Of a stretch of DNA of 32,659 nucleotides, positions 3,795-29,060 are shown one piece after another. The position numbers were made by a program, and so were the translations under genes. Location: IMG/VR virus record IMGVR_UViG_3300005467_000031, positions 1 through 32,659 of that record. One strand, 5' to 3'. Position 1 is the stretch's first letter, and each line of letters starts with the position of its first letter. The notes below the pieces were generated by a model. It was not told the DNA's origin, did not search any database, and saw nothing but the letters and a program-made list of their open reading frames with translations. The stretch is from a virus.

Positions 3795-3997
3795 GACGCC
3801 ACGAGAGCGAAGCCGCGCGTGAGCGTCGCCGCATCCGCCGCATCGTGCGGGAGAACCGCGAGTTCTACGCCGCTCAACTAGGCCCGAAGGGCACCAAAGA
3901 CAAGGTGTGGGGACCGGACATGCGTGTCGAGTGCGAGCGCGCGGTGTACGTGTGCGACTGCATTCTTGCCAGCATCTCGTGGGGCATCAAGAAATGA
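3791..3997 (+). CDS. small basic hypothetical protein, 68 aa
   Basis: The protein has a highly basic N-terminal helix (RRHESEAARERRRIRRIVRENREFY) and a second half with two cysteines (VYVCDCILASISWG). The start at 3791 overlaps the previous stop and the stop overlaps the next start region. DNA or RNA binding by the Arg-rich helix is plausible but unproven. Confidence 0.5.
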   Translation: MRRHESEAARERRRIRRIVRENREFYAAQLGPKGTKDKVWGPDMRVECERAVYVCDCILASISWGIKK

Positions 3998-4356
3998 CAT
4001 CGCCAGCCGCTCTCCTCGATTCTGCCGCCGTGGCTGCTCGGCTCGGCTGCACGCGTCGCCACGCCGCGTCGCTCATGGCCGAGATGGGCGCGGTGGACAT
4101 CAGCCGTTACGGTTCGCGCCGGCCTACCTGGCGCATCTCGGAAGAAGGGTTCGCGCAATGGCAGACGGAAAGAAGCGAAGGCGCCGCGGAGCGAAAGATG
4201 GCCTCTGGCTCAGGGGGCCGGTTTACTGGACGCGCGTCGCAGGCGAGAGACTCTCGACCGGGTGCCGCGACCGCGAAGCGGCGAAGATTGCGCGAGCAAG
4301 ACTCGAGCGAGAAGCAGCCGATCCGTCTCGCTCGAAGTCACGGCGCACTACCATGA
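3994..4356 (+). CDS. excisionase-like / MerR-type HTH protein
   Basis: The N-terminal ~50 residues read LLDSAAVAARLGCTRRHAASLMAEMG, then a beta wing (RRPTWRISEEGFAQWQ). This is the compact winged HTH used by many phage excisionases, and the gene lies directly upstream of the integrase. The remaining ~65 residues are Arg/Ser/Ala-rich low complexity, and they overlap the integrase coding sequence by 199 bases in another frame. The shared context supports an Xis-like role, controlling integration direction at att. The true end could be earlier if a frameshift joins it to the integrase. Confidence 0.6.
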   Translation: MTSPAALLDSAAVAARLGCTRRHAASLMAEMGAVDISRYGSRRPTWRISEEGFAQWQTERSEGAAERKMASGSGGRFTGRASQARDSRPGAATAKRRRLREQDSSEKQPIRLARSHGALP

Positions 4357-5414
4357 TGGACATGATGCGCCACGTGCTCGAGGACCGGAAGACGGCGAAG
4401 GGCAAGACGGGCGGCGTCCTGTCCCCCGAGACGATGGAGGTGTGGCGCGTGAAGCTCTCGCACCCTGTCCGACTCATCGGACCGAACATGCCGCTCTCCG
4501 AGGTGGATTACCTCGCAGTGGGCAAATTCCTCGAGGCTCGCGCGAAGGAGCGGCGCCACCCGGGGTCGAACGAGGCGGTCAGCCAGCACACCATCAGCAA
4601 GGAGCTCGCCGCTCTGCGCTTCGGCCTGCGGCTCGAGAAGCGCAACGAGGCGTACCCCTACGACGTTGACTGGGTGACCCGCTCGCGCAGCTTCGCCGTG
4701 GGCTACAAGCCCCGCAAGCGGCACCTGACGTGGGAGGAGATACCGCTGCTCCTCGGCGGGCTGCTGCAAGAGGACGCGCAGCGGGTGACTCCCGAGCTCA
4801 TCGCGACCGCCAAGAAGCTGCGACGCGGCGGCTACACGCTGAAGGGTGTTGCTAGGGCGATGAAGTGCAGCATGGCGACGGCTCACCGCTACCTCAACAT
4901 GCCCGAGCCGAAGCCGACCCGCGGCGGCGACCTGCGCGCGAAGCATGCGGCGTGGATCATCGCCACCGGCGCGCGGCGCAAGGAGAGCTACCGCGCGGAG
5001 CTGCGCGACCACGACTTCAAGGCCTGGCGCGTGCACCTGCGCGGCACGAAGACGGGGAGCGCCGAGCGGACGATACCCATCGCCCCGCCGTTCCGCTCGC
5101 TGCTCACGTTCGCCGTGGAGGGCAGGCCCGAGAAGGGGGCGCTCTTCCCGCGCTGGGCGAACATCTGGCGCTCGCTCCGGCTGGCGTGCAAGCGGGCGAA
5201 CATCGAGCCGCTGTCGCCGAACGACCTCAGGCGGACGCACGCGAGCTTGCTTCAGCAATCGGGCGTTGTGCTCGAGGACCTGAAGCACGTGATGGGGCAC
5301 ACGACGACGCGCATGCTCGAGGTGACGTACGCGAGCACCAACCTCGACGCTCTCAGTCGTGCGCTCGAGAAGGTCAAGACGAGGCCGCTGCTGCCGGGAG
5401 GAAAGAAGCGATGA
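4158..5414 (+). CDS. int: tyrosine integrase with inserted HTH
   Basis: The protein has 418 residues; the start follows AGAAGG by eight bases. The N-terminus has an arm-binding-like region (LWLRGPVYWTRVAGERLSTG) and residues 65-185 form the core-binding region. The catalytic set is R273 (TGARRKE), K298 (GTKTG), R358 in NDLRR, H381 (MGHT) and Y391 (VTYAS). The usual box II His is Asn355. Between TWEEIPLLLGGL and HAAWIIATGARR lies an extra ~60-residue segment containing GYTLKGVARAMKCSMATAHRYL, a resolvase-like HTH not expected there. The enzyme would recombine attP with the host tRNA site. Confidence 0.9.
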   Translation: MADGKKRRRRGAKDGLWLRGPVYWTRVAGERLSTGCRDREAAKIARARLEREAADPSRSKSRRTTMMDMMRHVLEDRKTAKGKTGGVLSPETMEVWRVKLSHPVRLIGPNMPLSEVDYLAVGKFLEARAKERRHPGSNEAVSQHTISKELAALRFGLRLEKRNEAYPYDVDWVTRSRSFAVGYKPRKRHLTWEEIPLLLGGLLQEDAQRVTPELIATAKKLRRGGYTLKGVARAMKCSMATAHRYLNMPEPKPTRGGDLRAKHAAWIIATGARRKESYRAELRDHDFKAWRVHLRGTKTGSAERTIPIAPPFRSLLTFAVEGRPEKGALFPRWANIWRSLRLACKRANIEPLSPNDLRRTHASLLQQSGVVLEDLKHVMGHTTTRMLEVTYASTNLDALSRALEKVKTRPLLPGGKKR

Positions 5415-5871: not shown

Positions 5872-6162
5872 ATGAGGTTACGCAGAGATTCAGACGGCGC
5901 CCTGCACAAGGTCGTTCTCGACGTGGACGGTGTCGAGTGCTTCGTCGTGCGCTGGACCGAGTCCTGCTCGGGGTGCTGCGAACTCGGCGAGGCGATGATG
6001 AACGCGCATCACTACGCCTTCGACGACAAGGCGCATTGCTACGTCGGCTCCGGCTGCGATGAGTGCGGTTACACGGGCAAGCGGCGGCGTGAATGGCTCG
6101 CGCCGTTCGAATTCGACGCGCGCGCCAGCCGAAGCGCCCCACCCCGCACCGGAACCTCATGA
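5872..6162 (+). CDS. zinc-finger-like protein, 96 aa
   Basis: The N-terminus forms a beta sheet (LHKVVLDVDGVECFVVRW). The core has CSGCCE and, about 28 residues later, CDECGYTGKRR, the CxxCxYxG pattern of DnaJ-type zinc knuckles. His residues in MNAHHYAF may also bind metal. The tail is basic and Pro-rich. The gene belongs to a run of small zinc-binding proteins on the plus strand. The partner is unknown; nucleic acid is a reasonable guess. Confidence 0.6.
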   Translation: MRLRRDSDGALHKVVLDVDGVECFVVRWTESCSGCCELGEAMMNAHHYAFDDKAHCYVGSGCDECGYTGKRRREWLAPFEFDARASRSAPPRTGTS

Positions 6163-6178
6163 GTCGCGTTGAAACGGA
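6159..6178 (+). repeat. 20-bp direct repeat over a start codon, copy 1
   Basis: ATGAGTCGCGTTGAAACGGA is identical at 6159 and 6395. Each copy begins at the start codon of a gene and overlaps the stop of the previous one, and it encodes MSRVET. Confidence 0.8.
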
Positions 6179-6398
6179 TGAAGGCGTTTACGAGCGATGC
6201 TCCTGTGATGCGCGGCTCGTTCGCAGACAGAACCGGAAGACCGGCGACTGGTTCTGGGGTTGCTCGACTTACCCGAAGTGCGACCGGACATTCCCGATCA
6301 CGACCGTGTTTACCGAGGACGGGGACCCGATGCCCGAATGGGACGACGGCGAAGTGTCGCCGTACGACCTCGGTATCGACGACGTGGGCGACCGATGA
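6159..6398 (+). CDS. topoisomerase-type C4 zinc-finger protein, 79 aa
   Basis: Residues 13-47 hold CSCDARLVRRQNRKTGDWFWG, then CSTYPKCDRTFP. This matches the C4 zinc finger of topoisomerase I C-termini (CxC, then GCSxYPxC), which binds single-stranded DNA. The rest is a short acidic tail (MPEWDDGEVSPYDLGIDD). It overlaps its upstream neighbour by four bases. It probably binds DNA as a stand-alone finger. The first pair is CxC rather than CxxC, a small deviation. Confidence 0.7.
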   Translation: MSRVETDEGVYERCSCDARLVRRQNRKTGDWFWGCSTYPKCDRTFPITTVFTEDGDPMPEWDDGEVSPYDLGIDDVGDR

Positions 6399-6414
6399 GT
6401 CGCGTTGAAACGGA
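6395..6414 (+). repeat. 20-bp direct repeat over a start codon, copy 2
   Basis: This is the second exact copy of the 20-base start region at 6159. It is followed by GGAGGAGAGA, a good ribosome site for an internal ATG at 6422. Confidence 0.8.
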
Positions 6415-6880
6415 GGAGAGAATGGCAAAGACCGTCGAAGACGTGTGGGACAAGCTCGGGGACATCCCCATGCCGAAAGGGACCGCGGCGTCGGCCAGGC
6501 TGAACTGGAACGACTACGACCGCGCGTGCATGCGGATTCTCGCCGAGTGGCGCACTGAAATTCAGGAGTGCGCCGCGGGGGAGATGCGCGCCCGCGCGGT
6601 GAAGGAGTGCCGAGACCTGATGGGGGTGAAGGAGTGGGCGACGGATTCCGACGTGTCTCCGGAAGTGGCTGCCGCCTGGGATAAGGCAGCGGAGTGCTGC
6701 GCCCGAGGGATACACGAGTTGCCGCTCACAGACACAGTTTGCCCCAAGTGCGTCGGTTTCGGCTTCACGATCGGTGAGATTCCGGCCGGGTGCCCGCCTT
6801 GCCGCCACTGCGGCGGAACTGGTCGTCGCCAAAGCACACCCCCGTCACAGCCCCCGAAGGACAGCGATGAATCACCTTGA
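6395..6880 (+). CDS. helical protein with DnaJ-type zinc finger, 161 aa
   Basis: The N-terminal ~100 residues are helical and charged (CMRILAEWRTEIQECA, RARAVKECRDLMGVKEW). The C-terminus contains CPKCVGFGFTIGEIPAGCPPCRHCGGTG, split as CxxCxGxG and CxxCxGxG, the two halves of a DnaJ-type zinc finger. Two starts are possible: the ATG at 6395 in the repeated leader (MSRVETEER), or 6422 (MAKTVEDVW) with GGAGGAGAGA just upstream. The duplicated leader suggests that one start was copied from its neighbour. The role is unknown, perhaps chaperone-like or nucleic-acid binding. Confidence 0.6.
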   Translation: MSRVETEERMAKTVEDVWDKLGDIPMPKGTAASARLNWNDYDRACMRILAEWRTEIQECAAGEMRARAVKECRDLMGVKEWATDSDVSPEVAAAWDKAAECCARGIHELPLTDTVCPKCVGFGFTIGEIPAGCPPCRHCGGTGRRQSTPPSQPPKDSDESP

Positions 6881-6888
6881 TCCGAAGC

Positions 6889-6907
6889 CATTTCGAACGG
6901 TGACGCC
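6889..6907 (+). repeat. 19-bp direct repeat, copy 1
   Basis: CATTTCGAACGGTGACGCC occurs here and again at 7136-7154, where it touches the tRNA half. It lies in the 27-base gap between two genes and ends just before an ATG. Confidence 0.8.
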
Positions 6908-7117
6908 ATGACGAAGCGCGTCGACCGAGACCTCGACATGGTCGTATTGCAGCGCAAGCTCCGCGCGGCCATCGCTCGCACGGACAAGGCCATCGAAGGC
7001 GTCGCGCAATCCGTCGCGGTGCTGGCAACCCAACTCGGCTGGACCGGTGCGCTGCTCGAACTGCGCCGACGCGACCGCAAGCACAGCCGTGTCACACCGC
7101 GGAAAGGAACGCGATGA
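6908..7117 (+). CDS. hypothetical basic helical protein, 69 aa
   Basis: The protein is mostly helical, with a charged N-terminus (TKRVDRDLDMVVLQRKLRAAI) and a hydrophobic middle (VAVLATQLGWTGALLEL), followed by a basic tail. The ATG comes straight after the 19-bp repeat. It could be a membrane-associated or DNA-associated peptide. It is the last gene before the attP region. The family is not recognised. Confidence 0.5.
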   Translation: MTKRVDRDLDMVVLQRKLRAAIARTDKAIEGVAQSVAVLATQLGWTGALLELRRRDRKHSRVTPRKGTR

Positions 7118-7347
7118 GAAGCCGGAGAATGCAGGCATTTCGAACGGTGACGCCCGGTTTTACACGCCGGTGGTCCTGGGTTCGACTCCCAGCCAGCCCA
7201 CTCTATGATTCTGCGCAGTTAGCCGCCGCATGTGAGGTTGCGCCTACAAGGTGCGACCGGCCCAAAGCAGCGGTAATCGGAACTGACGCCCCAATACTGA
7301 AGCACAGTGGCGTCACAGTCCCCTGCGACCCTACAGGTGGGCCGTGA
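7114..7347 (+). CDS. ORF spanning the attP region (doubtful gene)
   Basis: A 77-codon frame starts in an ATGA overlap with the upstream stop and ends in a GTGA overlap with the next start, like its neighbours. Its middle is translated tRNA sequence, so its protein is unlikely to be conserved. Integration would cut it in two. It may only carry ribosomes across the att site. Confidence 0.25.
   Translation: MRSRRMQAFRTVTPGFTRRWSWVRLPASPLYDSAQLAAACEVAPTRCDRPKAAVIGTDAPILKHSGVTVPCDPTGGP
7136..7154 (+). repeat. 19-bp direct repeat, copy 2 (adjacent to attP)
   Basis: This is the second copy of CATTTCGAACGGTGACGCC, ending exactly where the tRNA anticodon stem begins. It is a candidate integrase or excisionase arm site. 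Confidence 0.75.
7154..7200 (+). other. attP: attP: 3' half of tRNA-Val(TAC)
   Basis: The sequence folds as the 3' part of a tRNA. Anticodon stem CCGGT/GCCGG (one U-G pair) holds the loop TTTACAC with anticodon TAC (Val). A 5-base variable region leads to T-arm CTGGG-TTCGACT-CCCAG, then the acceptor strand CCAGCCC and discriminator A. No matching GGGCTGG acceptor strand or D-arm lies upstream. Integrases of this type commonly cross over in tRNA genes and restore the host 3' end from attP. The internal position suggests an unintegrated phage genome. Confidence 0.75.
7284..7315. repeat. inverted repeat with nearby direct repeats, attP right arm
   Basis: TGACGCC (7284-7290) pairs perfectly with GGCGTCA (7309-7315) across an 18-base loop. 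CACAGT occurs at 7303 and 7314, 11 bases apart, and TGCGACC occurs at 7252 and 7324. These may be protein-binding sites for integrase, excisionase or host factor. Confidence 0.45.
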
Positions 7348-22164: not shown

Positions 22165-23658
22165 CTATTGATCCAGCACTTCGTATTCTTCCATCGCCGA
22201 GACCAAAGCCAAGGCGACCGCCGTATCCGAAAAGGTGAATTTCCACTGTCGGCGCTGGTAGGTGCCGAGCGAGTGGATCCGAAACGTCGGCGACGTGTCG
22301 CCTGACGAGCCGAGGTCGACCGGAATCGGGTCCGACCACGGCCCTTCGCGGTCACGGAAGGCCACGAACGCGTGCGGGCCTGGCGTCGTCGCCGCCGAGC
22401 CGCGGCGGAACACGAGGCGCAGGCTCTTGCAGTGCTTGCTCGACTCCGTCTTGCGGTTCAGGTACCCCGTCTCGACGTAGGCGACGATACGCGTGCCGAA
22501 GTCGGTCGCGGCGTCCAGCGTGAGCTCTCCGATCTGCCCGGCGCTCGTCGCAACGACGTTGACCGAGGCGTCTGGCGGCGTCGCGAGCGCCGTCACGGAG
22601 AAGGGGGCCCAGTTGTTGGTCGAGTCGTTCCACCCCGACCACTGCCCCCACCCGATACCCTTTTGGTAGGCGAACGTGCGGCCGTCGGACGGGAAGGACC
22701 AGACCGGCACGTCGAGGAACCCGTCCGCGACGCGGTAGCCGAAGCAGTCGCTCACGGTCGCCATGTCGTCGATCGTTCGCTGGATGGGATCCGAGAGCGC
22801 CTGGAAGCTCCGTCGATCGGACACGACGAGCCGGCGCTGGTGGTCGAGCCAGTAGGTCTCGCGGTCGCCCTTGATGAAGGAGTAGGGCGCCACCATCCCG
22901 ACCTCGATGCTCGCCACGGGCGCGTAGGTGAGGACCGAGTCGGGGAGGAAGACCTGCGTGGTCCTCGAGCCGAAGACCATCACCTCGTTCTGCACGCCGT
23001 AGACGGCGACCACCGGATCTGGGCTCGCCTCGGCCGTGAAATAGCCGCTCGTGCCGACGCCGCCGAGGCTCCACACCTCGTTGCCGGCGTAGCTCGTGTC
23101 ACCCGATGCGACGTCCGAGAAGCGCACCTTGGTCCGGTCGACCGAGACGTCGTTGGCGAGGAGGCGCAGGTTGTTCGAGACCACGTGCGAGGCGATCGGA
23201 GCGGGCGAGCCGGCCACGCGCGAGGAGGAGAGCGCGAAGTGCGTCGTGGGAAGGACGACCTTCTGGAGCGCGTCCCCGCCGGCGATGGCGAGAAGGAGCT
23301 CCGTCTCGGCAAAGGTCGGCCGCGACGTGCCTCGGAGGCCATTCGGGGGAACCCCGCCGCCGATGGCCGCGGCCCCGCCGGACGTCACCTTGTAGACGGG
23401 GCGCTCGGCCCCGGACGCGCCCACGGCGAACAGGTCGCCTGCGACGGTCGCGTAGAGGCCCGACAGGCCATTCGGGTCGATGATCGGCGCGACGTCGCCC
23501 GCGAACAGCGGAGCCCCAGCGTACTTAGCGATGCCGGGACGGCGGAGCACGGAGCCCTTGCCGTCGACCACGACGTTCATCGCCACAGGACTTGCCCCCG
23601 CGAGCACTTCGTGCCCGGACTCCTGGAGGTTGGCGAAGGGGATGGGTTCGACCGGCAT
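22165..23658 (-). CDS. gp10-like tail hub / DNA-stabilisation protein
   Basis: The 497-residue protein starts MPVEPIPFANLQESGHEVLA, then MNVVVDGKGSVLRRPGIAKY. The sequence continues with many beta strands (NEVMVFGSRTTQVFLP, YWLDHQRRLVVSDRRSFQAL, FAYQKGIGWGQWSGWND). This propeller-like pattern is typical of P22 gp10-type proteins, which close the portal after packaging. The neighbours (adaptor, tailspike, ejection proteins) fit. The start forms TGATG with the upstream stop. Confidence 0.6.
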   Translation of the reverse strand: MPVEPIPFANLQESGHEVLAGASPVAMNVVVDGKGSVLRRPGIAKYAGAPLFAGDVAPIIDPNGLSGLYATVAGDLFAVGASGAERPVYKVTSGGAAAIGGGVPPNGLRGTSRPTFAETELLLAIAGGDALQKVVLPTTHFALSSSRVAGSPAPIASHVVSNNLRLLANDVSVDRTKVRFSDVASGDTSYAGNEVWSLGGVGTSGYFTAEASPDPVVAVYGVQNEVMVFGSRTTQVFLPDSVLTYAPVASIEVGMVAPYSFIKGDRETYWLDHQRRLVVSDRRSFQALSDPIQRTIDDMATVSDCFGYRVADGFLDVPVWSFPSDGRTFAYQKGIGWGQWSGWNDSTNNWAPFSVTALATPPDASVNVVATSAGQIGELTLDAATDFGTRIVAYVETGYLNRKTESSKHCKSLRLVFRRGSAATTPGPHAFVAFRDREGPWSDPIPVDLGSSGDTSPTFRIHSLGTYQRRQWKFTFSDTAVALALVSAMEEYEVLDQ

Positions 23659-25298
23659 CACAGTGTCACGTCCCCCGTGGTGTTGACGAAACCCCAGTAT
23701 TTGACCGCCGACCCGCCGCCCGCCGCCATGACCTCGTAGGATCGGAACACGATCGCCTGCGCCCGGTTCGCCGCCAGCGTGAAGGGGGCCTTCCCCTTGA
23801 AGTCGGAGCCGAGCGTGATGGTGCCCGAGCCTACGGCGTTGTCGTTGTTCACCACGAGCGTGAACATGAGCCCGGGGGCGCTCGGCGTGGCGCCGTTGAT
23901 CGTCTGGTTGCCGTTGTTGGTGCGGCGCACTTCCGCCACGCCGTACAGGTTCGGGTTGACGGTGATCGGGTCCGTGTTGTCGGTCACGTGGTAGGTGCGC
24001 GTCGCGCGGTCGACTTCCTCGCCGCCTTCGTGCGTCGCGTTCGATGTCGCCACCGTGGGGCCCGACTGGACCGACCAGGTAGAGCTCTGCGACCTCGAGT
24101 TGAGGCCGACGAAGTTCCCCGCCGTCGTCCCGCTGTAGCCGATGGGCTGAATCGTCCCGCCGGCTGGCGATTCGAAGCGGTTGCCCGCGACGGTGTAGGA
24201 GCCCGCCAGAAGCAGACAGCGACCCGTGCCAGCAGCGACGGCCGAAGCGTCGAACCTGCACCCGACCACGACCGAGGAAGTCGTGCTGTTGAGGTAGCAG
24301 GCGTCCCCGTTGTGCGTGGCGGGCATCTTGAACTCGCACCCGACGAGAACGACGCGCGCCGCGGTGCCGTTGTTCTGGATCCCGTACGAGGCCGCCCCAC
24401 CGTTCTGGAAGACAGTGTCGACGGCCCGCACAAGGGTGGCGGCATTGTCGACGGAGAGCCCGATGCCGCTCGTTGTGGCAGCGCCGATGTGGCAGTTCTC
24501 GATGAAGAGGCGCGTCCCGCTTTCTACGACCAGGTGCTTGCCCGAGTTCGCCTGGAGGGCGAGGATGTTGAGGCCCCTGACCGAGCTGGCAAACGTGTTG
24601 GCGGCGAAGGTGAGCGCATTCGCGTTCGCGTGGTCAATGCCGATGTTGGTGACGTTCGGGCCTGGGCCCCAGAGCGACACGCCTGCCGGTACCGTCAGGG
24701 CCGACGTTGTGCGGTACGTGCCCTCCGGGAAGAACACGATGCCGCCGCCCACGTTGCCAGCCGCCGTGAGCGCCGCTTGGACGGCGGACGTGTCGTCCCC
24801 GGACCCATCACCAACCGCACCGTACGCTGGCGCCTTGACGTTGTAGAAGATCCCGGAGAACGCCGCGAACGCGTTGGTCAGCAGCGTTGGGGTCCCGTCG
24901 ATGGTGACTTTCCAATCCCGGGTGCCAGCGCTGGTGGTCCACAGATCGAAGACCGCCGCGGCCGTCGTAGGCTCGCCGGCCGCAGCGACTCCGGTCGTGT
25001 AATTCGTGCCCGTGAAGCTCGCGCTCCGAACTTCGACGTCCGAGGCCGATACCATGGCCGTAAAGGTCCGCACAGTGTTGCCCGTCGAGTTCTTCACGAC
25101 GATGTCAACCGACTCGTTCACGTACCAGGTCGCACCGCCGTTCGAGTCGAGGAGCACCCCCGCCGTCGGCGTAACCGCGCCCGTGCCGTCGTAGCTCGTG
25201 AAGAGCTGGGCGAACGTGCTCGTGCCGCGGCTGCGAATCTCCGCCGTGCCGCCTTCGGCCCCGCGTACGCCGCTCGCCAGAACGTCGAGCAGGTTCAC
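23658..25298 (-). CDS. second beta-helix tailspike (pectate-lyase-3-like)
   Basis: Residues 1-150 form a strand-rich N-terminal part. From about 152, FYNVKAPAYGAVGDGSGDDT, then SAVQAALTAAGNVGGGIVFF and PEGTYRTTSALTVPAGVSLW, is the hallmark entry into a pectate-lyase-3 parallel beta-helix. Rungs of the type VVLVGCEFKMP and CLLLAGSYTVAGNRFE follow. The C-terminus is all beta. It probably recognises surface sugar. It lies in the middle of the tail genes rather than at the operon end, next to a second beta-helix protein. Confidence 0.8.
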   Translation of the reverse strand: MNLLDVLASGVRGAEGGTAEIRSRGTSTFAQLFTSYDGTGAVTPTAGVLLDSNGGATWYVNESVDIVVKNSTGNTVRTFTAMVSASDVEVRSASFTGTNYTTGVAAAGEPTTAAAVFDLWTTSAGTRDWKVTIDGTPTLLTNAFAAFSGIFYNVKAPAYGAVGDGSGDDTSAVQAALTAAGNVGGGIVFFPEGTYRTTSALTVPAGVSLWGPGPNVTNIGIDHANANALTFAANTFASSVRGLNILALQANSGKHLVVESGTRLFIENCHIGAATTSGIGLSVDNAATLVRAVDTVFQNGGAASYGIQNNGTAARVVLVGCEFKMPATHNGDACYLNSTTSSVVVGCRFDASAVAAGTGRCLLLAGSYTVAGNRFESPAGGTIQPIGYSGTTAGNFVGLNSRSQSSTWSVQSGPTVATSNATHEGGEEVDRATRTYHVTDNTDPITVNPNLYGVAEVRRTNNGNQTINGATPSAPGLMFTLVVNNDNAVGSGTITLGSDFKGKAPFTLAANRAQAIVFRSYEVMAAGGGSAVKYWGFVNTTGDVTL

Positions 25299-26125
25299 CA
25301 GGACACCGCCCCGCCGCTCGTGGCCGTGGAGGGGATGAGCTGGCCCGTCGTCGAAGCATGATGCTTCGCGTCAGCCCCGAGGAGCAGGCTCACGTTCTCG
25401 GCGCGCAGGCGCGTCGTCGCCCCCGTCGTCCCGTCCCAGGACGCGCCCGAGAACCCGACCGTCCCATCGGACAGAACGAGCCCGTTCACGTCGAGGTCCG
25501 TGACCGTGCCGATGTGCCAAATGCCGTACGTGGGGCGCGTGGCCACGGCCGTCGCGGTCGAGATGATGGTCGTGTTCTCGATGCGGATGCGGGCGACGCC
25601 GCTGGCGATCGAGAGCCCCGGGAGCTGGTCGAGCCCGCTCTGCTCGATGTAGCAACCGCGGATGAGCGTCGAGTTACCCGTCGCGCCGATCGCAACCTTG
25701 CCGACCCCGCCGCCTGCTCCGCTGTTCGATTGAACGCTCGCGGGGAACTTGATGTTCCGGAGCTGGATGGCCGCAGCGTTGAGAACGAAGACGCTCTGGT
25801 TCGCCGCGTTGATCTTGAACTGCGCCGTTGGCACGCCGCCGCTCGAGCCCTCGCCAACGATGATGAGCGACTTCGTCAGGCTGAGTCCGACCGTGAACGT
25901 CTCCGTGTGGGACGAAAGCAGGACGACGATGTCGCCGTCGGCCCCGTTCGTCTGCGCCTGCGCCAGCGTGGCGAGCGGCTTCTGCCGGTCCTTGCCAGCG
26001 GGCGAGGCACCGTCGACTCCGATGGTCGAATCGACGAACCAGACATCACCTGACGTGTAGAGCGGCTTGGTCGTCGCGAGCGAGTCGCCCGTGGTGCCGC
26101 CAAGCCCGTTGGCCCAAAGCTTCAT
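25295..26125 (-). CDS. beta-helix virion protein, 276 aa
   Basis: The N-terminus has GDVWFVDSTIGVDG, then PLATLAQAQTNGADGDIVVL and LSSHTETFTVGLSLTKSLII, followed by helix rungs (IQLRNIKF, STLIRGCYIEQS, IENTTIIS). The block at residues 64-76 aligns with residues 71-83 of the beta-helix protein at 27186, so the two look like paralogues. A small fibre or decoration role is likely. It is coupled to both neighbours by four-base overlaps. Confidence 0.6.
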   Translation of the reverse strand: MKLWANGLGGTTGDSLATTKPLYTSGDVWFVDSTIGVDGASPAGKDRQKPLATLAQAQTNGADGDIVVLLSSHTETFTVGLSLTKSLIIVGEGSSGGVPTAQFKINAANQSVFVLNAAAIQLRNIKFPASVQSNSGAGGGVGKVAIGATGNSTLIRGCYIEQSGLDQLPGLSIASGVARIRIENTTIISTATAVATRPTYGIWHIGTVTDLDVNGLVLSDGTVGFSGASWDGTTGATTRLRAENVSLLLGADAKHHASTTGQLIPSTATSGGAVSW

Positions 26126-26838
26126 CGCCTACCTCCCGAGAAGTGGGCCAGCACGAACTGCTGGGAGCCCCTCTGTTGCGACTGGCCGCGGCAGCGATCG
26201 AGCAGTTCCCTCTCTTCGTCGCGCAGCATCTTGACGCGCGATAGCGAGAGCGAGTGCGACATGGCGAGCCGCGACGCCAGCGCCGTCACGAAGTACTCCT
26301 GCCAGTACGGCTCGAAGTCGGCCGTGGCGTTGCCGTCGCGCATGTTGGCGCGGAGGCGATGCGTCTGGAGCCGGATGGTCCCGAGATTCGTCGCGTCGGG
26401 GGTCGGCCAGACGTAGAGCGTGATGGCGCTCGAGGTGCGGTCGGTGAAGTACTCGACCGGGCGGCCCGTCGCGCCGTGGCTCGAGAGCCCCTGCCACTTC
26501 TCGCGCGAGATGGGCTTGACGGGCGTCTCCCCATTCGCGGCCGTGAGCGTCTGGGTCGAGTCGATGAAGGCCCCGTCCCCGTCCACGTCGAGCACGTCGG
26601 TCGGCAGCGTGTAGCTCCGCTGGCCGGCGACCATGGTCACGTGCTCGAGCCGCATCACCTTGGCAAAGAGGCCCATGGTGTGGGTCGAGCGGACGAGCAG
26701 GTCGAGCTCGTCGAAGGCGTAGCGCGCCTGCTGGTCGGTGAGCGACTGGTAGATCGAGACGATGCCCGCTTTGCGGTAGGCGAGGAGCGCCAGCGCAGAC
26801 AGGTCGAACTCGAACGTGCTGGTCGTCGAGACGGTCAT
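26122..26838 (-). CDS. gp4-like head-tail adaptor, 238 aa
   Basis: The protein has an N-terminal helical bundle (LALLAYRKAGIVSIYQSLTD, ARYAFDELDLLVRSTHTMGL), then YTLPTDVLDVDG, a strand-rich middle (YFTDRTSSAITLYVWPTPDA), and C-terminal helices with basic residues. This is the layout of P22 gp4 and T7 gp11-type adaptors that dock on the portal. It sits between the capsid and tail genes. Confidence 0.6.
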   Translation of the reverse strand: MTVSTTSTFEFDLSALALLAYRKAGIVSIYQSLTDQQARYAFDELDLLVRSTHTMGLFAKVMRLEHVTMVAGQRSYTLPTDVLDVDGDGAFIDSTQTLTAANGETPVKPISREKWQGLSSHGATGRPVEYFTDRTSSAITLYVWPTPDATNLGTIRLQTHRLRANMRDGNATADFEPYWQEYFVTALASRLAMSHSLSLSRVKMLRDEERELLDRCRGQSQQRGSQQFVLAHFSGGRR

Positions 26839-28151: not shown

Positions 28152-29060
28152 CTACGCGTTCACGCCCAAAATGCATCGCGGGTCTGACCAACCGCGCGCC
28201 CATCGGGCGGAGATCGAGTACTTCTTGACCTCGTGATCGTTGTCGACCCAGGCGCGCCCCTTGGGCTTGCGCCGCCAGAGCCACTTCAGGCCGTTGTCGA
28301 CGTTGGTCTTGAGGAACCAGTTGGTCGTCGAATTGGTCCACTGCTTCATCGGGTACGCGTCGAGCTCGAGCGTGGAGTTCACTACGTTGACGGCGTTGAA
28401 CTCGCCCGCCTCGGGCTTGTGCGTCGAGTGCAGGATGACGTCCCAGGCCGCCCACTGGTCCACCGGGCACCCGATGCATTCGGGCTCGTAGCCCTCGATG
28501 ATGCCGTCGTGGCCGGGGTACTTGCGGATCTGGGTCGTCGCGACGATGACGGCCGCGACGCTCGGCGACTGCGGCGTCGCCATGATGTTCGAGAACGTGC
28601 CGCCGTTCGGCAGCGTGTGGCTCGAGCTGCCGAGGGAGACCGAGTCGCCGCCGACGTACGCCGAGTTGAACATGCGGACGAAGACGTTCGTGGCGTCGAT
28701 CTCGACCGTCTTGTTCATGGCGCGCTTGAGCCGCTTGGCCGCCATGATGACCTTGTCGTACTTCGCGTCTTCTAGCGCCTCGTCGGAGATGATGAGCTTG
28801 AGAGCGAAGGTCCGCGCCATGTAGCGCGTCAGGTACCCTTCCTTGATGCTCCCAGCCTGAACCTCCGAGGCTTCCGGCTTCTCGGACGCGAGGCCCGGGC
28901 CGCCGTACTCCAGGTCGTCGACGAAGTTGTCGTCCATCGACCCTTCCTCGAAGATCTTGAAGACCGTCATGTCGGAGACGGAGCCCTCGGACTCGTCGGT
29001 GACGACCTCCTCGAGCGTCTCCTTGAGTGAGCCTGCCTCTGTCGCGGTGGTAACGATCAT
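28152..29060 (-). CDS. major capsid protein
   Basis: The 302-residue protein has an acidic N-terminal arm (SLKETLEEVVTDESEG), then YGGPGLASEKPEASEVQAGS, RTFALKLIISDEALEDAKYD and KVIMAAKRLKRAMNKTVEID. The C-terminal part carries DVILHSTHKP, and a strand region NSTTNWFLKTN. This fits an HK97-fold capsid of the Mu gpT-like style. It sits between the scaffold/head genes and the adaptor and has the right size for a capsid. The specific family cannot be confirmed without a search. Confidence 0.7.
   Translation of the reverse strand: MIVTTATEAGSLKETLEEVVTDESEGSVSDMTVFKIFEEGSMDDNFVDDLEYGGPGLASEKPEASEVQAGSIKEGYLTRYMARTFALKLIISDEALEDAKYDKVIMAAKRLKRAMNKTVEIDATNVFVRMFNSAYVGGDSVSLGSSSHTLPNGGTFSNIMATPQSPSVAAVIVATTQIRKYPGHDGIIEGYEPECIGCPVDQWAAWDVILHSTHKPEAGEFNAVNVVNSTLELDAYPMKQWTNSTTNWFLKTNVDNGLKWLWRRKPKGRAWVDNDHEVKKYSISARWARGWSDPRCILGVNA

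Follow-up and report, generated by a model that had tools for sequence, protein, structure and literature searches.

Tyrosine recombinases are difficult to reprogram, because recognition of the core DNA is spread across two domains. The closest designed relatives of the arrangement described here are Cre- and Vika-type recombinases into which DNA-binding domains have been inserted, which makes recombination dependent on flanking sites and can raise activity there (PMC11631766). In these zinc-finger recombinases (Cre, Brec1, D7 and Vika) the added domain lies within the coding sequence rather than at a terminus; they are artificial, carrying Zif268-type zinc fingers on Gly-Gly-Ser linkers at Cre 278/279 and at Vika 172/173 and 269/270. 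Catalytic-domain insertions are also on record in Tn916-like, IntBPP-1, lambda, integron and some archaeal integrases, and those of the Tn916-like and integron enzymes contact DNA (PMC8138268). The insertion of Tn1549 Int touches DNA and is required for recombination (PMC5871717, PMC8138268). In IntTn916 and IntBPP-1 the natural insertion is a short β-hairpin in a small β-sheet, placed after the first catalytic arginine, Arg I (PMC8138268, PMC5871717).

Helix-turn-helix (HTH) domains have been described within the tyrosine recombinase polypeptides of archaea, in fam30-04 integrases with BAT and HTH_10 domains and in some pNOB8-like integrases (PMC8371274). As reported, these are extra domains of larger proteins and belong to another HTH family, with no nesting in the catalytic fold described. 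Lambda integrase and other integrases with an arm-binding domain combine arm-binding, core-binding and catalytic domains and have tandem arm-like motifs by the att core. The phage integrase analysed here is predicted to share the domain layout, and its record has putative arm motifs of this kind; the catalytic domain of those enzymes, however, lacks an HTH. Catalytic-domain insertions, and HTH domains elsewhere in integrases, were known before; what appears to be new is a natural HTH nested in the catalytic fold, of which a search of freely accessible papers returned no report.

The integrase and its nested domain

The window, meaning the whole stretch of DNA analysed, is a virus record of the IMG/VR class with a length of 32,659 bases, and is possibly a fragment. 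Its tyrosine integrase gene (4158-5414, plus strand) encodes a protein of 418 residues, P0001, and is preceded by a ribosome-binding site (GGAAGAAGGG, 4140-4149) 8 nt 5' of the start. The Pfam model Phage_integrase (PF00589) covers residues 262-391, as numbered in the frame searched (E = 1.3e-13; 51.5 bits against a cut-off of 27.1), and the protein matches the phrog_1 integrase of PHROGs at 5.9e-27. AlphaFold2 modelling of the whole protein from a 14-row alignment gave a mean pLDDT of 83.7 and a pTM of 0.58. Foldseek matched this model to XerA, lambda Int and Tn1549 Int, and structural comparison with viral models matched many integrases. The model predicts an arm-binding fold at the N-terminus (β-strands 16-19, 22-27 and 30-33, helix 39-54), which is followed by a core-binding domain at about residues 66-175 and a catalytic domain at about 186-405 that contains the nested HTH.

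Alignments place the catalytic residues at 4974-5330 on the plus strand, as Arg273 (4974), Lys298 (5049), Asn355 (5220), Arg358 (5229), His381 (5298) and Tyr391 (5328). The R, K, R, H and Y expected of a tyrosine recombinase are all there, and the canonical R-K-H-R-H pentad is incomplete at His II (HxxR), which is Asn355 here and likewise Asn in 49 of 62 aligned rows. The first catalytic His is also weakly conserved in IntBPP-1 (PMC8138268), and we do not take Asn355 as excluding P0001 from the tyrosine recombinases. Sequence and predicted structure indicate a phage tyrosine integrase of the lambda (heterobivalent) type, and the host of the phage is probably one of the Myxococcota or their kin.

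The original prediction had proposed that about 60 extra residues with a resolvase-like HTH separate the start of the catalytic domain from Arg I. The extra segment is present, but measures 54 residues: Thr191 and Arg273 lie 82 residues apart in P0001, as against exactly 28 in 48 of 62 rows of the subfamily alignment and 25-46 in a minority. Judged by loop length in the relatives, the insert occupies about residues 205-258, give or take a few residues at either end (4770-4931, plus strand). It is flanked on one side by the first catalytic helix (194-203) and on the other by a helix (255-270) that runs on to Arg273 in the model. The motifs by which it had been delimited were read correctly, with TWEEIPLLLGGL at residues 191-202, GYTLKGVARAMKCSMATAHRYL at 225-246 and TGARRKE at 270-276.

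Within the insert, a three-helix domain is predicted at residues 212-247 (4791-4898, plus strand), which lies inside the span 4788-4900 that had been assigned to the HTH. HTH_7 (PF02796) is the top Pfam model for this segment and the sole near-significant match in the whole of P0001 besides Phage_integrase, with E = 1.6e-3 for the whole protein and 2.4e-4 for the insert segment. It is also the top model for the insert of an independent homologue, P0002 (1.1e-3 whole protein, 1.3e-4 segment). The scores in both proteins and both segments are 19.0-22.4 bits, all under the curated cut-off of 23.8 bits. AlphaFold2 places helices at 212-223, 228-234 and 239-247 with a pLDDT of 88-96 across the block except at its flanks, the hinge at 201-210 being less certain, and the insert modelled alone gave the same three helices (pLDDT 91-95). 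Compact and three-helical, the predicted domain conforms to the HTH fold, in which the recognition helix follows a tight turn. That putative recognition helix, MATAHRYLN (residues 239-247; 4872-4898, plus strand), contains the string ATAHRY, which is identical in P0002. The net charge of the HTH is +7 in P0001 and +5 in its homologue.

Fold-level comparisons point to the same class of domain. In the PDB, a profile built from the two inserts matched SIRV1 ORF55 (2x48) with E = 7e-4 and SpoIIID with E = 0.18; the highest-ranked sequence match, 2lvs (E = 2.4e-4), spans the first helices only. Foldseek with the insert returned IstA, SIRV1 ORF55 (2x48) and the DeoR DNA-binding domain as best matches; probabilities reached 1.00, but E-values were at least 0.1 because the domain is short. 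In resolvases and invertases (HTH_7), IS21 IstA and SIRV1 ORF55, which give the best sequence or fold matches, albeit below cut-off or at weak E-values, the HTH either sits at a protein terminus or is a protein by itself. A β-stranded insertion of the IntTn916/IntBPP-1 type was considered and rejected: in the model the insert is all-helical and precedes Arg273. Together these data confirm, at the level of profile matches in two proteins and a three-helix prediction that folds by itself, the proposal of a resolvase/transposase-type HTH domain nested in the catalytic domain, and in the predicted structure the segment is not a normal part of that domain.

Carriers of the insert and their relatives

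Relatives of P0001 came only by way of the motif PNDLRRTHA, with more members taken from Myxococcota genomes; when viral and genome collections were scanned with single sequences, nothing was returned. The resulting 62-row alignment includes a few partial or spurious frames. Its members are 31-40% identical to P0001 where they align, through the core-binding and catalytic domains, and in nearly all of them the helix before Arg I follows directly on the first catalytic helix. The segment had been expected to be unusual, and 2 of the 62 aligned proteins carry it, the other subfamily members lacking it.

The second carrier, P0002, is encoded on L027, a viral contig of 98 kb from a distantly related phage, and shows the same Thr-to-Arg distance and therefore likewise an excess of 54 residues. 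The two integrases are 49% identical over 415 aligned positions and align gaplessly across 113 columns spanning the insert. In a tree calculated without the insert columns they form a clade with support of 100/100, so that a single gain of the insert suffices. The insert itself is 33% identical between the carriers, against about 50-58% for the remaining protein, and ATAHRY is fully conserved despite this faster change. The GC and GC3 of the insert match those of the rest of the gene, which by that measure argues against recent foreign arrival. The same loop is lengthened to 39 residues in the relative L028 and to 46 in L059, neither with an HTH, and these enlargements indicate that insertion is tolerated at the site.

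The L027 contig also encodes, at 1389-2129, an HNH endonuclease that has NUMOD4 and, at its C-terminus, an HTH_7-like segment. It is a conceivable source of the HTH, but the match is too generic to mark it as the origin.

A third carrier was not found among IMG/VR viral contigs (within the limits of the patterns), 50,697 phage and 72,556 plasmid records, and sampled Myxococcota genomes. When viral contigs were scanned for the insert or the att site, the L027 contig was the sole carrier returned, and a pattern combining WEE and TGAR at the spacing of the insert gave 16 viral stretches, with no HTH-bearing integrase among them. Because these carrier scans detect little beyond near-exact peptide patterns, and the genome searches cover samples, the rarity of the insert is supported, not proven. 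A tblastn search of phage records with the insert region returned matches at E of 0.1 or above only, several of them running from the middle of the HTH onto ordinary Staphylococcus integrases, and these were judged to be chance.

Among the wider set of homologues, the position of catalytic Arg I holds Glu, Cys, Asn, Ser or Asp in 32 of the 60 rows with a residue there, nearly all of them chromosomal. Lys, Arg II, His and Tyr are kept in these proteins (including L025, L035, L043, L046, L049, L064 and L095, from Myxococcota), which are possibly altered or inactive recombinases.

The probable attachment site

Downstream of the integrase gene, the window carries the 3' half of a tRNA-Val(UAC)-like gene at 7154-7200 (plus strand), comprising the anticodon arm, T arm and acceptor end. 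The match to RF00005 is 19.2 bits (E = 0.0036 for the record) and lies under the gathering score. A matching fragment occurs in L027 at 5300-5346, directly after the integrase stop. The folded RNA of the stretch was no more stable than shuffled sequences, as expected because it is only half a tRNA. In 360 Myxococcota genomes the fragment was absent when searched with up to 3 mismatches. We consider this tRNA-Val 3' half the probable attP core in both carriers.

In both phages the fragment is flanked on both sides by the motif AAGCACA-N7-CACA. The window has three exact copies, all on the plus strand: a near copy in the P arm (7079-7096), a distant P-arm copy 247 bp upstream of it (6832-6849) and one in the P' arm (7300-7317). 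Against these three, 0.18 would be expected at up to one mismatch; the L027 contig has two, and all copies in both records lie in the att regions. AAGCACA stands exactly at +97 from the tRNA end in both phages and upstream at -124 in the window and -113 in L027, offsets that differ by one 11-bp unit. The full motif was not found in 11 insert-less phage records, and a reversed control likewise gave none. These repeats look like tandem arm sites and we treat them as putative ones. The motif accompanies the HTH carriers in this small sample; since the carriers are sisters, shared ancestry equally explains it. Besides the tRNA core and the arm motif, no further conserved block (8/10 identity in a common register) was found around both att cores. 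The arm motif may be accounted for by the arm-binding domain, which would leave no candidate HTH site near the cores.

A stretch of about 75 bp that includes the arm motif and an exact 19-mer (CATTTCGAACGGTGACGCC) occurs twice in the window, at 6832-6907 and 7079-7154, 247 bp apart. The second copy abuts the tRNA-like fragment, and the repeat is possibly a duplicated part of attP.

On the other side of the integrase gene, a small excisionase-like ORF with a weak HTH_17 match (3994-4356, plus strand) shares about 200 nt with the beginning of the integrase gene, read in a different frame. The long overlap recurs in L027 (3828-4187) and in most viral relatives (L024, L028, L031, L034, L022, L023, L021 and L018).

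Possible roles of the nested domain

These data allow us to propose a role for the domain, to which we give about even chances: the nested HTH would give the recombination complex an extra hold on DNA that stabilises or licenses it. In this model a single insertion event placed the HTH in a surface loop, behind the first catalytic helix and ahead of the helix bearing Arg I. The catalytic core, with the set R-K-N-R-H-Y intact by sequence, would work as in other family members, and the N-terminal domain would grip the arm sites. The HTH would touch additional DNA, such as the outer core half-site, the attB flank or arm DNA, or would bridge to the DNA of a partner subunit, and this contact would stabilise or license the complex in the manner of the zinc fingers that impose flanking-site dependence on Cre. 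The elements of Tn1549 Int that touch DNA are αA-D, αI, αJ and the β-hairpin (PMC5871717), so a domain before Arg I need not block the core DNA and could reach outer or neighbouring DNA. Consistent with an accessory contact, the insert is restricted to one loop and constant in length in both carriers, HTH models and predicted structure agree independently for each, the HTH is positively charged, and ATAHRY is kept intact in an otherwise less conserved insert. Counting against it, the two att regions hold no conserved candidate for an HTH site, the HTH_7 scores are below the curated cut-off, and no more than two carriers are known.

A narrower form of the same idea, possible though doubtful, is that P0001 is the natural counterpart of the engineered insertions, with the HTH reading core-adjacent sequence and holding the recombinase inactive until bound. 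The phage would then gain a second, separately evolvable specificity input within the catalytic domain. Where the engineered enzymes are artificial, P0001 carries a natural, predicted HTH ahead of Arg I. It presents a natural DNA-binding-type module nested in the catalytic domain and retained across substantial divergence, and makes the loop before Arg I a second tolerant position for insertion designs. P0001 and P0002, two sequences with a candidate attP and an insert boundary constant at 54 residues, offer a directly testable example of integrases gaining accessory DNA contacts.

HTH folds at times mediate protein contacts rather than DNA binding. It is unlikely that the nested domain has lost DNA binding and serves to bind protein instead; its target would be the excisionase-like HTH_17 protein, another integrase subunit or some host factor. 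The insert loop lies on the surface, the excisionase-like gene always adjoins and overlaps int, and the missing separate DNA site in the two att regions would fit such a role; the positive charge and conserved recognition helix are, however, typical of DNA binding, and insert-less relatives with the same neighbour gene manage without the HTH.

We think it less likely still that the HTH gives the integrase a second task in transcription, controlling its own operon or the lysogeny switch, and has no role in recombination. The HTH domains of pNOB8-like archaeal integrases have been proposed to regulate transcription (PMC8371274), the att/arm region of L027 begins right where int ends, and the integrase itself is small, positively charged and DNA-binding. 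A regulatory domain would nevertheless be more naturally joined to one end of the protein, and its position in the catalytic domain fixes the HTH rigidly to the recombinase body.

It appears improbable that the insert is a neutral passenger, one that landed in a tolerant loop as a mobile or recombined segment and persists there without function. The loop takes other insertions, as in L028 and L059, and the insert diverges faster than the remaining protein, but the same length, the same HTH pattern and an identical ATAHRY would be unexpected in a passenger when the proteins are only 49% identical.

Selection of tRNA-Val as the integration site in the carrier lineage is highly improbable as the function of the HTH: the tRNA-Val(UAC) fragment and arm motif are in both carriers and not in the 11 insert-less phages, and the HTH-less L028 has a tRNA-His fragment instead, but in the insert-less L030/L113 the fragment beside the integrase also reads as tRNA-Val(UAC), at a weak model score, and HTH-less members use other tRNAs, so the core-binding and catalytic domains suffice. 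Other tRNA fragments next to int in insert-less relatives are less certain than that of L028. The subfamily thus probably needs no HTH to pick a tRNA gene, and tRNA-Val is not simply selected by the HTH. Given the L030/L113 fragment, the HTH is probably not what selects the tRNA, and the two att regions hold no extra conserved block as a binding site for it; that the domain adds sequence specificity or governs target choice stays a hypothesis.

Elsewhere in the window, the minus strand encodes a tail-spike-like protein with a pectate-lyase-type β-helix (23658-25298; PF12708, E = 3.6e-12), a match to the SU10-type adaptor protein (26122-26838; E = 1e-10) and a borderline capsid match (28152-29060); the remaining large late genes have almost no Pfam or PHROGs matches. 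Two consecutive small ORFs open with nearly identical 23-nt sequences (ATGAGTCGCGTTGAAACGGA), at 6159-6181 and 6395-6417.
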